Source: Edaphobacter aggregans DSM 19364 (GTDB lineage Bacteria > Acidobacteriota > Terriglobia > Terriglobales > Acidobacteriaceae). Taken from it: a stretch of 64,000 nucleotides of DNA. Under the pieces are notes generated by a model. That model did not search any database. It saw nothing but the letters and a program-made list of their open reading frames with translations, and had not been told where the DNA came from. The stretch is from assembly GCF_000745965.1 (NCBI RefSeq), contig NZ_JQKI01000001.1:310087-374086 (forward strand), written 5' to 3'. Position numbers and translations under genes: made by a program. Position 1 is the first letter of the stretch. Every line of letters begins with the position of its first letter. Shown piece after piece: positions 37,565 through 50,973 of this stretch.

Positions 37565-38998
37565 CTAACTCAGCGTCTCCATCAGCTTGTTGATGGTCCG
37601 ATTGAGGTCCTTGTCCGCCCGCCGCTGCTCGTCGATCTTCGCGATCGAGTGCATCACCGTCGTGTGGTGCTTGCCCCCGAACTGCCTCCCGATCTCCGGC
37701 AGGCTCGCCTCCGTGAGCTGCTTGGCCAAATACATCGCAATCTGCCGCGGCACCACGATCTGGCGCGAGTTGTTCTTCTGCTTCAGCTCCGCCACGCGCA
37801 TCCCGAAGTTCTCGGCGACGGTCCGCTGAATCGTCTCGATCGTGATCTTGCGCACCTGCGTGTCGATGAACTGCTTCAGGCACGTCTGCGCGACCGCCAG
37901 CGTAATCTCCACGCCGTGCATCGAGCACCACGCGATCAGCCGCACCAGCGCGCCCTCAAGCTCGCGAACATTCGTGCGAACATTCGAGGCGATGAACAGC
38001 GCAACGTCGGTCGGAAGCTGCGTCTGCTCGCTCTCCGCCTTCTTCTGCAGAATCGCGACCTTCGTCTCGAGATCCGGCGGCTGAATGTCGGTGATCAGTC
38101 CCCACTCGAAGCGCGACCGCAGACGGTCTTCAAAGTCAGCAAGCTCCTTGGGAGGGCGGTCGCTCGCAATCACGATCTGCTTCATCGACTCGTGCAGAGC
38201 GTTGAAGGTGTGGAAGAACTCCTCCTGCGTGCGCTCCTTGCCCGCGAGAAACTGAATGTCGTCGATCAGCAGCACATCCACGTTGCGGAACTTGTCCCGG
38301 AAGCTCGTCATCTTCTGGTAGCGCACGCAATCGATCATCTCGTTGGTGAACTTCTCGCCGCTCACGTAGCAGATCGCCGCGTGCGGCTGACGGCGCTTCA
38401 CCTCGTGGCCGATCGCCTGCATCAGGTGCGTCTTGCCCATGCCCACGCCGCCGTAGAGGAACAGCGGGTTGTACGCCTTGGACGGCCGCTCGGCGACCGC
38501 CTGCGCCCCAGCCACGGCAAACTGGTTGCCGCTGCCCACCACGAACGCGTCGAACTGATACTTCGGGTTCAGTTGCGATGCCGTGTTCCAGTCGAACCGC
38601 GATTGCTCCGGCATCGGTCCCGCCTGCGCTCCCGTCGTCAGCGTGCCCGGGCGCGTCTGCTTCGGAGCGCTCTGGCTGTGGCTCGGCACCGGCGCAAATC
38701 CGCCGTCCTCGCGTACCTTCGGGGCTCTCGGGTCCTGCTCGGGGGTCGTAAACGCCACCGCTTCAATGTCCAGGCCCAGGTTCTCGATCGCCTCCTGGAT
38801 CAGGTCCGCATACCGGTCCCCGATGTGCTGGAAGTCTGAGGAGGGGATTCGCACAAAGAGCTTCTTGCCCTCTAAGTGAGAGAAGCGCGTCGGCTTCAGC
38901 CATGTTTCGTACGACTGGCGATTGATCTTCTTCTCGAGCGCGGCAAGGATGCGAACCCAGTAATTCAACACGGCGGTGGCCGTTGGAACGAATGACAT
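37565..38998 (-). CDS. dnaA: Chromosomal replication initiator protein DnaA
   Basis: DnaA opens the replication origin and regulates transcription. The 477-residue protein has domain I (NYWVRILAALEKKI...), a Pro/Gln-rich linker and the AAA+ core with Walker A GGVGMGKTHLMQAIGHE and Walker B VLLIDDIQFLAGK. The C-terminal DNA-binding helix-turn-helix reads REIAMYLAK-like VVPRQIAMYLAKQLTEASLP, followed by FGGKHHTTVMHSI. dnaN lies 6 kb downstream on the same strand and rpmH is divergent, the common order around bacterial origins. Identification is certain. Confidence 0.97.
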   Translation of the reverse strand: MSFVPTATAVLNYWVRILAALEKKINRQSYETWLKPTRFSHLEGKKLFVRIPSSDFQHIGDRYADLIQEAIENLGLDIEAVAFTTPEQDPRAPKVREDGGFAPVPSHSQSAPKQTRPGTLTTGAQAGPMPEQSRFDWNTASQLNPKYQFDAFVVGSGNQFAVAGAQAVAERPSKAYNPLFLYGGVGMGKTHLMQAIGHEVKRRQPHAAICYVSGEKFTNEMIDCVRYQKMTSFRDKFRNVDVLLIDDIQFLAGKERTQEEFFHTFNALHESMKQIVIASDRPPKELADFEDRLRSRFEWGLITDIQPPDLETKVAILQKKAESEQTQLPTDVALFIASNVRTNVRELEGALVRLIAWCSMHGVEITLAVAQTCLKQFIDTQVRKITIETIQRTVAENFGMRVAELKQKNNSRQIVVPRQIAMYLAKQLTEASLPEIGRQFGGKHHTTVMHSIAKIDEQRRADKDLNRTINKLMETLS

Positions 38999-47427: not shown

Positions 47428-49980
47428 ATGATGGAAGCGATCCTCAACGACCTGCGTCATGGACTACGCCGCCTGCGCCGCGCGCCCGGCTTCACCTTCA
47501 CCGCGCTCGTCACCCTCGCCCTCGGCATCGGAGCCACCACCGCCATCTTCACTCTTACCTACCAGGTCGTCCTCCGCTCTATGCCCGTCGACCATCCCGA
47601 GCAGCTCTACAAGGTCGGCAAAGAGATTGAGTGCTGCGTCGATGGCGGGCTCCAGGGTCACTGGCGGATCTTCTCCTACGACCTCTACCGCACCCTCCGC
47701 GACCATACCCCCGGCATCGACGGGATGGCCGCCGTCCAGGCCGGAAACATCACCATCGGCGTACGCCGCAAGAGCGACACTGCCGCGCAGCCGCTCGAAG
47801 CCCGCGCCATCTCCGGCAACTACTTCTCCGTCCTCGGCGTGAAGCCCTTCGCCGGACGCCTCCTCACCCCCGACGACGACAAAGAAGGTGCGCCTCCGGT
47901 CGCCGTCATCAGTCACGCTATCTGGCAGTCCAAGTTCAACAGCGATCCAACTCTTGTCGGCTCCTCCGTCACCTTTACCGGTCATCCCTTCACCATCGTC
48001 GGTATCACCGCCAAAGGCTTTCTCGGTGATCGCAACTCCGCCGACCCCGCGGGCGTCTGGATTCCTCTCGCAGAGGAGCCAATCCTTGAACCGGAGCGCA
48101 AACTCTACATCCTGCCGCAGTCTCACTGGCTCGATATCCTCGTCCGCATCCGCGACCCCCGCTCCGTGCCCGCCGTCCAAAGCGCTATGCAGGTTGAGCT
48201 CCTACGCTGGATCCGCGCCAACCGTGGCGCGGCAACGCACGACTCTGAAGCCGATATCGCCAAGCAGACCACCGAGCTCGCCCCCGCCAGCGACGGCATC
48301 AACAACCTTCGCGACGAGTACGAAAAGAGCCTCACCATGCTGCAACTCATCGCTGCCTTCGTCCTCGTCATCGCCTGCGCCAACCTCGCTAACCTCATGC
48401 TCGTCCGCGGCGTAGCCCGCCGGCAGGAGCTCAGCGTCCGTAGCGCCCTTGGTGCCTCCCGCTCTCGCCTTGTTCGCGAGATGCTCGTCGAATCCATCAC
48501 GCTCGCCATCTTCGGCGGCGCTCTCGGCCTCTTCGTTGCCTACGCCGGCGTCAAGGCCATCCTTGCCATCGTCATGCGCGGCGTCTCCGTCAATCCCCTC
48601 AGCGCCTCGCCCTCGCTCCCCGTCCTGCTCTTCGCTCTCGCCGTTTCCGCCATCACCGGCGTGCTCTTCGGCATCGCTCCCGCACTGCTCGCCTCACGGC
48701 TCGACCCCGCCGATGCTCTGCGCGGAGCTAATCGCACCACCGGAAACGTCAGCGGACTCCAGCGCGCTCTCGTCATCCTCCAGGCCGCGCTCTCCGTCGC
48801 TCTCGTCAGCACCTCCGGCCTCCTCATCCTCAGCCTCCAGCGGCTTCAGCAGCAGGACTTCCGCTTCGAGACCCACGGCCGCCTCATCGCCTTTACCGAT
48901 CTTCAGTCCGCCGGCTACCAGTACGAGCAACTCGATGGACTCTACCGGCGGATCGACCAGACATTCGCCGCCATTCCCAACCTCTCCGACACCTCCTACG
49001 CCACCTACAGTCCCATGTCCTACAACAACTGGGGAACAGGCATTGCCATTCACGGTGGCGACCCCAACGCCCAGCTCAACGCCAGCTACACCTCCGTCAG
49101 TCCCCGTTTCTTCGACGCCGTTGGAACCCGCGTGCTTCAGGGACGCGTCTTTACCGAGAGCGATACCGCGACCAGCACGCACGTCGCCGTCGTCAATCAG
49201 ACCTTCGTCAAAAAGTTCCTCAACGGCAAGCAGCCGATCGGCCTGCACTTTGGCCCTGATCCCAGCATGACCGGCGAGTATGAGATCGTCGGTGTCGTCG
49301 ACGACAGCAAGTACGGTGACCCCTCACGCCCCACCAACCCCATGTTCTTCACCCCTATGGCGCAGACCACCAACTTCGAAACCATCGACGCCCCGGCTGT
49401 CATGCGCGAGCAGGCCATCAAGGGCGAGCGCTTCAAGCACTACGCCTCAAATCTCATTGTCCGCTACCAGGGCGACCCTGCCGAGGCCACGGCCCAGGTC
49501 CGCAAGGCGCTCGCGCGGATCGACTCCAACATCCCCATCCGCCAGCTCACCACCTACGACGAGCAGGTCGGCAACTACTTCACCCGCCAGACCCTGGTCG
49601 TCCGCCTCACTGCCATCTTCGGCGTGCTCGCCCTTATCCTCGCCTCCATCGGGCTCTACGGAGTCACTGCCTACAGCGTCGCCCGCCGCATCCCCGAGAT
49701 CGGCCTCCGCATGGCTCTCGGGGCCGACCGCGCCAGCGTCGTCCGCCTCATCCTCAAGGGAGCCGCCACACAGATCGCCATCGGCCTCGCTATCGGCGTT
49801 CCCGCTGCCCTCATCGCCGGACACTTGCTCCAGTCGCAGCTCTACCAGGTCACCGGCTACAATCCCCGGACCATCCTTGCCGCCTGCGCCGCTCTCATCC
49901 TCAGCGCCGTCGTCGCAAGCGTCATGCCCGCACGCCGCGCCTCTGCCGTCGAGCCAATGCAGGCCCTCCGCACCGAATGA
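47428..49980 (+). CDS. Acidobacterial duplicated orphan permease (MacB/FtsX-type)
   Basis: The 850-residue protein has an N-terminal helix (LRRAPGFTFTALVTLALGIG), a large extracytoplasmic MacB-type domain (~50-330) and a first FtsX domain (~350-470). A second periplasmic domain (~490-720) and a C-terminal FtsX domain ending in MPARRASAVEPMQALR follow. This doubled architecture without its own ATPase is the hallmark of the ADOP family abundant in acidobacteria. Partner ATPases are usually elsewhere. ATG 47428 follows a GGAGAG. It interrupts the normal yidC-jag neighbourhood. Confidence 0.93.
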   Translation: MMEAILNDLRHGLRRLRRAPGFTFTALVTLALGIGATTAIFTLTYQVVLRSMPVDHPEQLYKVGKEIECCVDGGLQGHWRIFSYDLYRTLRDHTPGIDGMAAVQAGNITIGVRRKSDTAAQPLEARAISGNYFSVLGVKPFAGRLLTPDDDKEGAPPVAVISHAIWQSKFNSDPTLVGSSVTFTGHPFTIVGITAKGFLGDRNSADPAGVWIPLAEEPILEPERKLYILPQSHWLDILVRIRDPRSVPAVQSAMQVELLRWIRANRGAATHDSEADIAKQTTELAPASDGINNLRDEYEKSLTMLQLIAAFVLVIACANLANLMLVRGVARRQELSVRSALGASRSRLVREMLVESITLAIFGGALGLFVAYAGVKAILAIVMRGVSVNPLSASPSLPVLLFALAVSAITGVLFGIAPALLASRLDPADALRGANRTTGNVSGLQRALVILQAALSVALVSTSGLLILSLQRLQQQDFRFETHGRLIAFTDLQSAGYQYEQLDGLYRRIDQTFAAIPNLSDTSYATYSPMSYNNWGTGIAIHGGDPNAQLNASYTSVSPRFFDAVGTRVLQGRVFTESDTATSTHVAVVNQTFVKKFLNGKQPIGLHFGPDPSMTGEYEIVGVVDDSKYGDPSRPTNPMFFTPMAQTTNFETIDAPAVMREQAIKGERFKHYASNLIVRYQGDPAEATAQVRKALARIDSNIPIRQLTTYDEQVGNYFTRQTLVVRLTAIFGVLALILASIGLYGVTAYSVARRIPEIGLRMALGADRASVVRLILKGAATQIAIGLAIGVPAALIAGHLLQSQLYQVTGYNPRTILAACAALILSAVVASVMPARRASAVEPMQALRTE

Positions 49981-50352
49981 TCCATCGCCGGGTGCCCATT
50001 CATGTGGCTTCATCGATGAGCAGGTCATTCGCGCAATGCGCGAACCGTTCTCTTCGCTCCCGAAATACTTCAGGCACACGCTGAAACCCGCACCAGCCGC
50101 GGCCCCAACCCACTTCTCCACAGCCGTTTTCTTGACACCGCCTGCTATTCTTAAATAAGAGAGAAAGAAAAAGAGCCCGGCCACCCGCCGGGCTCTGTCG
50201 TCTCCCCGAGAGCGGCCTACTTCACCGGAAGTACGGACCTATCTCCCATCCATTGAATACTTTGCACACTTTTGACGGGCGGGTGGGGTCCCCGGAGTTT
50301 TACTCCAGTGCAAACTTTTGTCACGCTTCTTCCGTATACTGAAGAGGTCCCG
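49981..50352. other. Intergenic region with degenerate repeats and a hairpin
   Basis: Holds sequences of the GGGTGCCC type common in acidobacterial intergenic DNA (near 49990-50030). It also has a perfect hairpin AGAGCCCGG/CCGGGCTCT (50172-50196), with an A-run on its left that would be a T-run for minus-strand transcripts, and a GGGTGGGGTCCCCGG segment (near 50280) related to the one inside jag. No gene seen. Confidence 0.55.
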
Positions 50353-50973
50353 ATGCAAGACCCTGAAGCAAATAAGAAGAAGGTAGCTGACTTCCTCCAG
50401 ACCCTCACCTCCGCAGGCCGTCTGAATCTGAAGTTCAACATCCTCGCCAGCAACGGCCCCGTGCAACCGGGGTCCCCGGCCGACTCGTCGGCTGGGGTGG
50501 AAGTGCAACCCAACGCCAGCGACTCCGCCGGTGCAACCACTGCTGCTCCCGAAATCTCGGTCGAGCTCTCCGGCCCGGACGTCCCCCTCGTCCTCGCCCG
50601 CAACGGCGAACTCCTCCTCGCGATCGAACACGTCGCCGCCAAGATCCTCCGCTTCGAGCACGAGGACCACGACCGCATCTCCTTCGACGCCGACAACTTC
50701 AAGGTGCTCCGCCACCAGGAGCTTGTGCTCGCCGCCGAGGCTGCCATCGAGCGCGTCCGCCGCACCGGCCAGCCCTTCTCCTTCTCCCCCATGAGCTCCC
50801 GCGAACGCCGCCTGCTCCACCTCGCGCTCGCCCCCTCAGGACTCGCGACCGCCTCCTCCGGCGAAGGCCCGCGCCGCTTCGTCGTCCTCTACCCTGAGGG
50901 CGAAAAGCCTCCCGCCGAGCCGAGCCCCGCCGACCGCGCACAGGCCATCCGCCAGCGCTTCCGCCGCCGCTAG
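50353..50973 (+). CDS. jag: RNA-binding protein Jag/KhpB (KH plus R3H domains)
   Basis: The ~206-residue protein has an N-terminal part (VADFLQTLTSAGRLNLKFNI), a KH-like core (LARNGELLLAIEHVAAKIL...FEHEDHDRISFDADNFKVL) and an R3H domain (MSSRERRLLHLALAPSGLAT, then GPRRFVVLYP). Jag acts in RNA metabolism and is commonly encoded next to yidC. ATG 50353 has AGAGG upstream. Between the N-terminal part and the KH core is an extra segment encoded by a repeat flanked by an 8-bp duplication (50461-50510). It is separated from yidC by the large permease. Confidence 0.88.
   Translation: MQDPEANKKKVADFLQTLTSAGRLNLKFNILASNGPVQPGSPADSSAGVEVQPNASDSAGATTAAPEISVELSGPDVPLVLARNGELLLAIEHVAAKILRFEHEDHDRISFDADNFKVLRHQELVLAAEAAIERVRRTGQPFSFSPMSSRERRLLHLALAPSGLATASSGEGPRRFVVLYPEGEKPPAEPSPADRAQAIRQRFRRR
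50461..50510 (+). repeat. In-frame repeat insertion in jag with 8-bp flanking duplication
   Basis: GTGCAACC occurs at 50461-50468 and at 50503-50510, a period of 42 bases (14 codons). Between them is an imperfect palindrome, CCCCGGCCGAC (50474-50484) and GTCGGCTGGGG (50487-50497). The layout is that of a small inserted element with a target duplication. Confidence 0.75.

Follow-up and report, generated by a model that had tools for sequence, protein, structure and literature searches.

The window analysed here, a 64,000-nucleotide stretch of the genome of Edaphobacter aggregans DSM 19364, contains a jag gene whose product carries an R3H domain by Pfam. Residues 64-180 matched the NCBIfam Jag/EloR model at a score below its cut-off, and the solved Jag-like chains 3gku and 9lrg matched from residues 65 and 67 onward. 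Within this gene, at 50461-50510 on the + strand, two copies of GTGCAACC enclose a 32-base hairpin unit followed by AA. The exact copies lie at 50461-50468 and 50503-50510, GGGGTCCCC occupies 50469-50477 between these two in-register copies, and the 42-base period equals 14 codons, which keeps the open frame of jag. This confirmed the original prediction of an 8-bp repeat around a palindromic GGGGTCCCC unit, with a period of 42, a preserved frame and 14 added residues. The features of the locus, parsed as argued below, are:

50353-50973, + strand: jag (KhpB/EloR-like), host of the insertion, 206 aa, R3H domain at residues 127-181
50459-50466, + strand: left copy of the target duplication, now CCGTGCAA; inferred ancestor AAGTGCAA, with its first two bases altered (from alignment with empty sites)
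50467-50500, + strand: inserted palindromic element of 34 bp, CC + GGGGT + hairpin + TGG (from alignment, covariance model and family)
50469-50473, + strand: GGGGT, unpaired 5' tag, identical in 27 aligned copies but required by the search pattern
50474-50497, + strand: 10-bp stem with CTCG loop, CCCCGGCCGA / TCGGCTGGGG, with one G-T pair on the + strand
50498-50500, + strand: TGG, the 3' tail
50501-50508, + strand: right copy of the target duplication, AAGTGCAA (from alignment)

On composition alone the word counts are not striking. GGGGTCCCC occurs twice in the window against 0.41 expected (at least two in 5 of 100 shuffles) and GTGCAACC five times against 1.52 expected (at least five in 2 of 100 shuffles). 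The jag feature rises above chance because three sister genes show a 42-bp gap at exactly this place and because a dispersed family shares its ends. A third GTGCAACC, at 50531-50538, does not share the frame register of the other two. Upstream of jag a second GGGGTCCCCGG (50285-50295) was considered as another family copy and rejected, as it gave no match to the family model even at E 10 and folded with a z of -0.06. It is enclosed by a 7-bp outer inverted repeat, TTTGCAC and GTGCAAA, spanning 50261-50314 just 5' of jag; TATACT follows close 3' of this repeat and presumably resembles a -10 box.

We found jag in 90 of the 100 genomes searched and read 50 loci, our own included, from 46 of which the segment could be cut out. 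Among these 46, only the jag of the window's genome (G000) contains GGGGTCCCC. The tract I-L-A-C-N-G-x-V-Q, or a near form of it, is present in 20 loci and runs uninterrupted in 18; the two exceptions are G000 and G039. A MAFFT alignment of jag from G000, G039, G057, G033 and G026 displayed one 42-base gap, located between GGCC and AAGTGCAACCC. The three sister genes aligned therein lack the 42 bp and have the empty site, with GGCC directly abutting AAGTGCAACCC, as had been anticipated for jag in sister species. G039 carries a decayed insert at the same place, with 30 bases present (12 shorter) and the same TGG-AAGTGCAACCC junction. From the placement of the gap it follows that the target was GGCCAAGTGCAACCC, that the insertion consists of CC-GGGGTCCCCGGCCGACTCGTCGGCTGGGGTGG plus the second AAGTGCAA, and that the left copy now reads CCGTGCAA.

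The best parse of the jag feature would be an 8-bp target duplication of AAGTGCAA and a 34-bp element, CC-GGGGT-(CCCC-stem-GGGG)-TGG. We assign CC to the element on the following grounds: AA stands before the right copy, just as it does in the empty sites, whereas on the left AA has given way to CC. When parsed in this way, GTGCAACC would be the still-identical part of the duplication, its CC being common to target and element. The 8-bp duplication proposed originally is thus real but better read as AAGTGCAA.

G039 branches outside the G000 clade in both jag and YidC trees, and therefore a single insertion needs losses elsewhere, or else two insertions occurred. The whole tract is missing from jag of six close relatives (G040, G028, G038, G055, G059 and G012). 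yidC was not found within 8.8-8.9 kb around jag in G057, G033, G024 and G028 which, together with the position of G039 in the trees, indicates that jag may have a mixed history. In several other relatives, yidC ends less than 1 kb from jag. In the window, yidC and jag are separated by an 850-aa open reading frame (47428-49980) that reads like an ABC-type permease; tblastn against the surroundings of jag in seven relatives did not recover it.

The 25-mer TTGCCTGCAACGGCCANGTGCAACC of the jag tract next to the insertion was evaluated as a mobile repeat and rejected: within three mismatches it occurs once each in 11 of 61 genomes, always at jag coordinates, and it is therefore a conserved tract and not a repeat. 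Across 18 loci compared (jag of L008, L010-L013, L019 and L021-L032), the tract ATCCTTGCCTGCAACGGCCAnGTGCAACC at 50440-50468 was more conserved at synonymous sites than the conserved core of jag itself, with GGC in 20/20, GTG in 20/20 and the second CAA in 18/19. It is most altered in the two insertion-carrying genomes. The tract could be a binding site in RNA or DNA.

The first proposal, which had placed the insertion between the N-terminal and KH parts of Jag, found no support. According to the alignment and a single-sequence AlphaFold model, which at a mean pLDDT of 39.6 is no more than a weak hint, residues 25-31 and 67-73 form strands, and the stretch between them is variable, ranging from about 9 to 36 residues in aligned Jag relatives. 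Considering the alignment, this poor model and the known anatomy of Jag, the insertion probably falls into a loop of the KH-like fold and not into a linker ahead of it; this Jag seems to begin with the first helix and strand of that fold, and the insert to follow them. The 14 extra residues would lie within VQPGSPADSSAGVEVQP, in this apparent loop. Little effect on the Jag protein is expected, and nothing points to a loss of function.

Sequences with the same core are dispersed well beyond jag. The exact pattern GGGGTCCCC-N(10-40)-GGGGTGG was present in 53 of 100 related genomes, with 3 matches in our own, while a reversed-pattern control gave 11 matches in all. A covariance model built from 27 copies, the jag copy included, matched in 41 of 61 genomes, with 4 matches in our own genome (three of them placed), 50 in G017, 86 in G034, 94 in G028 and 111 in G068; the complete genome G023 had none by the model and 1 match to the exact pattern. 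REPs in general are short palindromes of 20-40 bp in tens to hundreds of dispersed copies, and the 86-111 matches in three genomes are of this order; our own genome has only 4. It had been suggested to look elsewhere for the same core with different flanks, and it does recur in our own genome and in relatives, some of the flanks being duplicated. Among the matches listed in a wider scan, the pattern also occurs with good stems in contigs labelled as Clostridia, Oscillospiraceae, Defluviitaleaceae, Pullulanibacillus, Nitrospirae, Sphingomonas and other Acidobacteria; the stems of many of those listed, for example from Streptomyces, are poor, and these matches seem to be fortuitous. An Rfam search of eight loci returned a cobalamin riboswitch in L076 and two matches below gathering scores, none of them overlapping the copies.

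The copies share a plan, 5'-CC GGGGT CCCC-stem-loop-stem-GGGG TGG-3', or more generally [N]CC-GGGGT-CCCC-variable stem and loop-GGGG-TGG over roughly 32-41 bp, and we refer to them as GGGGT-REPs. The copies were gathered with a pattern that fixes GGGGTCCCC and GGGGTGG, and the invariance of those letters is by construction. The CC just left of the hairpin is supported statistically: among 69 non-redundant copies, C is found at position -1 in 62 and at -2 in 59. Stem bases display compensating changes, with a covariation of 0.432 compared with 0.122 after shuffling, a value inflated by the choice of alignment rows for pairing (at least 8 of 9 pairs, one copy being added by hand). The first variable stem pair among 86 distinct elements was G-T in 42, A-T in 27, G-C in 13, another pair in 4 and A-C in none. 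Over all inner stem positions G-T outnumbered A-C by 105 to 16, a count that leans to G-T through the stem rule, as position 5 does to a much smaller degree. The excess of G-T over A-C at the first variable pair marks the GGGGT strand as the folding strand. Consistent with a better fold on one strand, the jag copy gave -11.2 kcal/mol as DNA, versus -9.0 kcal/mol for the opposite strand; as RNA on the coding strand it folded with -20.1 kcal/mol (z -2.1).

Flank statistics were collected from 130 distinct copies in loci L075-L104 and L215-L317, leaving out the RAYT loci and 80 of the 116 stretches of the wider scan (L135-L214). Stems of at least 8 were present in 116 copies, and removal of similar flanks reduced these to 69, of which 24 came from other organisms in the wider scan and are in some cases perhaps chance. 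Each left flank was then compared with its own right flank, with 5000 reshufflings as the control. An abutting duplication scoring at least 4 was observed in 14 of the 69 copies against 1.99 expected, and no reshuffling reached 14; three of the 14 (L251, L276, L259) are members of tandem arrays or contain N. For the genus and order copies the figures were 11 of 45 against 1.64, again without an equal in 5000 shuffles. The duplications range from about 3 to 8 bp, their exact ends being blurred by the CC. The jag copy failed this strict test because of the change from AA to CC on its left, and had the longest duplication (8) in a looser test. It had been argued that copies elsewhere without flanking duplications would speak against the reading; 55 of the 69 indeed score below 4, while 14 are duplicated. 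The former may reflect age or nesting, or not every insertion may duplicate its target. Many copies adjoin other repeats, which obscures what the target originally was. In L232, L236, L251 and L276 the hairpin and one short spacer (TAATC or GGCC) form tandem arrays, as expected if element and duplication multiplied jointly.

The genomic settings are varied. We grouped 89 copies from the genus, order and class by what adjoins them: 15 come after an arm of a GGGTGCCCC palindrome (its right arm could also be recognised in 5 cases), 19 after an arm of a GTCAT-type palindrome, 23 belong to a single compound repeat (CACGAAGTG...) and 32 have other surroundings. In-frame copies reside in at least six protein genes, encoding gamma-glutamyltranspeptidase (GGT, L316), PrmC (L307), GH92 (L103), Dus (L313), uroporphyrinogen decarboxylase (HemE, L309) and an OPT transporter (L098). 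The Pfam match spans the element in GGT, GH92 and Dus; in HemE and OPT, Pfam matches surround it in two stretches each (the best one of two displayed). In PrmC the methyltransferase matches stop just 5' of the element and the NPPY motif follows it. PrmC matched in 31 of 31 genomes, and of 20 loci fetched 19 included the NPPY region: the element stands between two GACGC in G017 and G008, and the remaining 17 are continuous without it. Insertion in frame with empty sites in relatives, as for Rickettsia palindromic elements (RPE), was thus found for jag and PrmC, and the copies in GGT, GH92, Dus, HemE and OPT are in frame. The HemE and Dus insertions of G017 are longer, also in frame, and hold the hairpin together with other palindromic repeats. 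A different outcome was seen near the ends of contigs C4 and C113 of our own genome, which carry identical 39-base copies flanked on either side by AGATC. The frame changes across this element; the insertion counts 44 bases and the frame is therefore broken. The two halves match the IS110 transposase family PF01548 at profile positions 50-107 (E 0.013) and 117-149 (E 0.0036), both below cut-off, and the predicted empty site of this IS110-like copy was not found in our own genome.

We consider it likely that the jag feature is a copy of this dispersed, non-coding REP-like palindrome, inserted with an 8-bp target duplication of AAGTGCAA. Counting against it are the imperfect left duplication in jag, the 55 of 69 copies without a duplication and the placement of G039. 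One competing account is that this is an ordinary REP moved by RAYT, the HUH tyrosine transposase related to IS200/IS605, with no true target duplication and with flanking repeats due to target preference or host-repeat structure. Genes matching PF01797 (RAYT) do occur in 24 of 30 genomes searched, our own included, and some RAYT genes of the genus (L114, L120, L123) are flanked by inverted pairs of a second REP of the same plan, GGGTGCCCCAT-stem-TGGG(TGGG), with a G-rich tag, a CCCC stem and a TGG(G) tail. In our own genome this REP lies at 38011 (+) and 38607 (-) of contig C19, around a PF01797 match at 38267-38497 (-). The arrangement in these loci and at C19 38011-38646 resembles a REPtron, but its tag is not GTAG. 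However, G028 has 94 GGGGT-REP model matches and no PF01797 match. RAYT as a direct neighbour was also rejected, in that only 1 of 30 RAYT loci (L118) contains GGGGTCCCC, more than 1 kb from the gene, a word looser by one base adding only L122. The two REPs, though alike in plan, do not simply go together by their distribution. The GGGTGCCCCAT REP has 37 pattern matches in our own genome against 3 for GGGGT-REP, and 18 in G028, which is without a PF01797 match. It has 0 or 1 matches in nine order and class genomes searched, including the GGGGT-rich G061, G062, G063 and G068; the six family f2 genomes searched have up to 111 GGGGT matches and 0-1 of the RAYT-linked REP. Moreover, known IS200/IS605 members make no larger target duplications, according to the passages of Nunvar et al. 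on this point (PMC2817692), yet jag, PrmC and others are duplicated. We therefore regard movement by RAYT as unlikely, if clearly the strongest of the alternatives.

It is very improbable that the hairpin is instead kept as an RNA element in jag mRNA, serving stability or autoregulation by an RNA-binding Jag. The good fold of the coding strand, the family-wide G-T pairs that favour this GGGGT strand and the adjoining tract conserved at the DNA level in relatives would all suit such a role. Against this, jag lacks the element in 18 of the 20 tract-bearing loci and has it in decayed form in G039, copies lie in unrelated genes of other species, and Rfam had no match over the copies of the eight loci. 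Local slippage or duplication, or plain chance, has less still to recommend it and is hardly credible as the origin of the period-42 repeat. There are indeed three copies of GTGCAACC in the region, and TGCAAC is found twice even where the tract is uninterrupted. But no source of the inserted core was seen within jag, the whole 42 bp are absent from the three aligned sisters, and the core matches the dispersed family (the jag copy being one of the 27 in the training set of the model).

Returning to the insertion of a GGGGT-REP, the duplications suggest that the element would move as one folded strand, namely the one with GGGGT. A trans-acting enzyme would join it to a target cut with staggered ends, and filling-in would yield the duplications of about 3-8 bp. 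Insertions with a total length that is a multiple of three could survive in protein loops, since the elements seldom hold a stop codon in any frame: stops are absent in all six frames in 56 of 62 distinct elements, compared with 48% after shuffling. No transposase could be tied to GGGGT-REP in a parent-element search that covered PF01797. The movement of REPs without an associated transposase is described as an open question for CGTC REPs in the abstract of PMC3733652. As GGGGT-REP insertions have empty sites and duplicated target bases, the chemistry of their joining is legible in the sequence itself, and G028, with about 100 copies and no detected RAYT, narrows the search for the enzyme. The family also provides clear cases of non-coding repeats turned protein segments outside Rickettsia. 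Tentatively, and with somewhat less than even confidence, we propose that GGGGT-REPs form a tag class of their own among REP-like elements, the third, and that they also occur outside Acidobacteriota. Their spread would duplicate the target, unlike the route of RAYT/IS200 enzymes, would place CC at the junction, would favour the tips of other hairpins and would repeatedly furnish housekeeping proteins with in-frame loops.

Several parts of this picture have precedents. Passages of PMC3733652 and PMC10969869 already describe palindromes inserted in frame (RPE), REPs nested in other palindromes and REPs that lack a dedicated transposase. Titles, abstracts and passages on REPs, RAYT and Acidobacteria genera, with most subscription literature outside this scope, contained no description of the GGGGT family, and the papers listed as containing the word GGGGTCCCC seemed unrelated by title and abstract. 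Where passages of PMC3733652 mention Acidobacteria, it is for transposase genes with long inverted repeats and not for such repeats. As treated there, the GTAG and CGTC REP superfamilies (Di Nocera et al. 2013) have in common with GGGGT-REP a dispersed hairpin of 20-40 bp that has G-T pairs in the stem and an unpaired tag on one side, sometimes inside other palindromes and sometimes in frame within genes. The GGGGT tag, TGG tail, upstream CC and short target duplications distinguish GGGGT-REP. Its tag at the hairpin foot is neither the unpaired GTAG or GTRG of GTAG REPs and REPtrons, which flank RAYT genes, nor the CGTC of CGTC REPs and RPE-4/RPE-6, whose stem starts with AT pairs and whose tail is CCA. 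RPE likewise place palindromic DNA in frame in housekeeping genes but, by the passages available in PMC3733652 and PMC10969869, measure about 150 bp in the first families, carry the CGTC tag in RPE-4 and RPE-6 and belong to another phylum. The original term, a mobile miniature element, holds in a loose sense; the element, a palindrome that duplicates its target, looks closer to REPs than to a classical MITE. MITEs too are short, non-coding and mobile with a target duplication, which GGGGT-REP shows in jag, in PrmC and as an excess over shuffles, and which is unseen at most copies. In contrast, the account of MITEs in PMC3733652 gives them 70-300 bp with 15-30 bp terminal inverted repeats, and the PF01797 search found no parent insertion sequence for GGGGT-REP. 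The RAYT-linked REP shares the G-rich tag, CCCC stem start and TGGG tail, and 15 of the 89 GGGGT-REPs stand directly behind the left arm of such a palindrome, but it flanks some RAYT genes and is the commoner of the two in our own genome. As far as literature searches show, both the GGGGT tag and the target duplications at the flanks are new.
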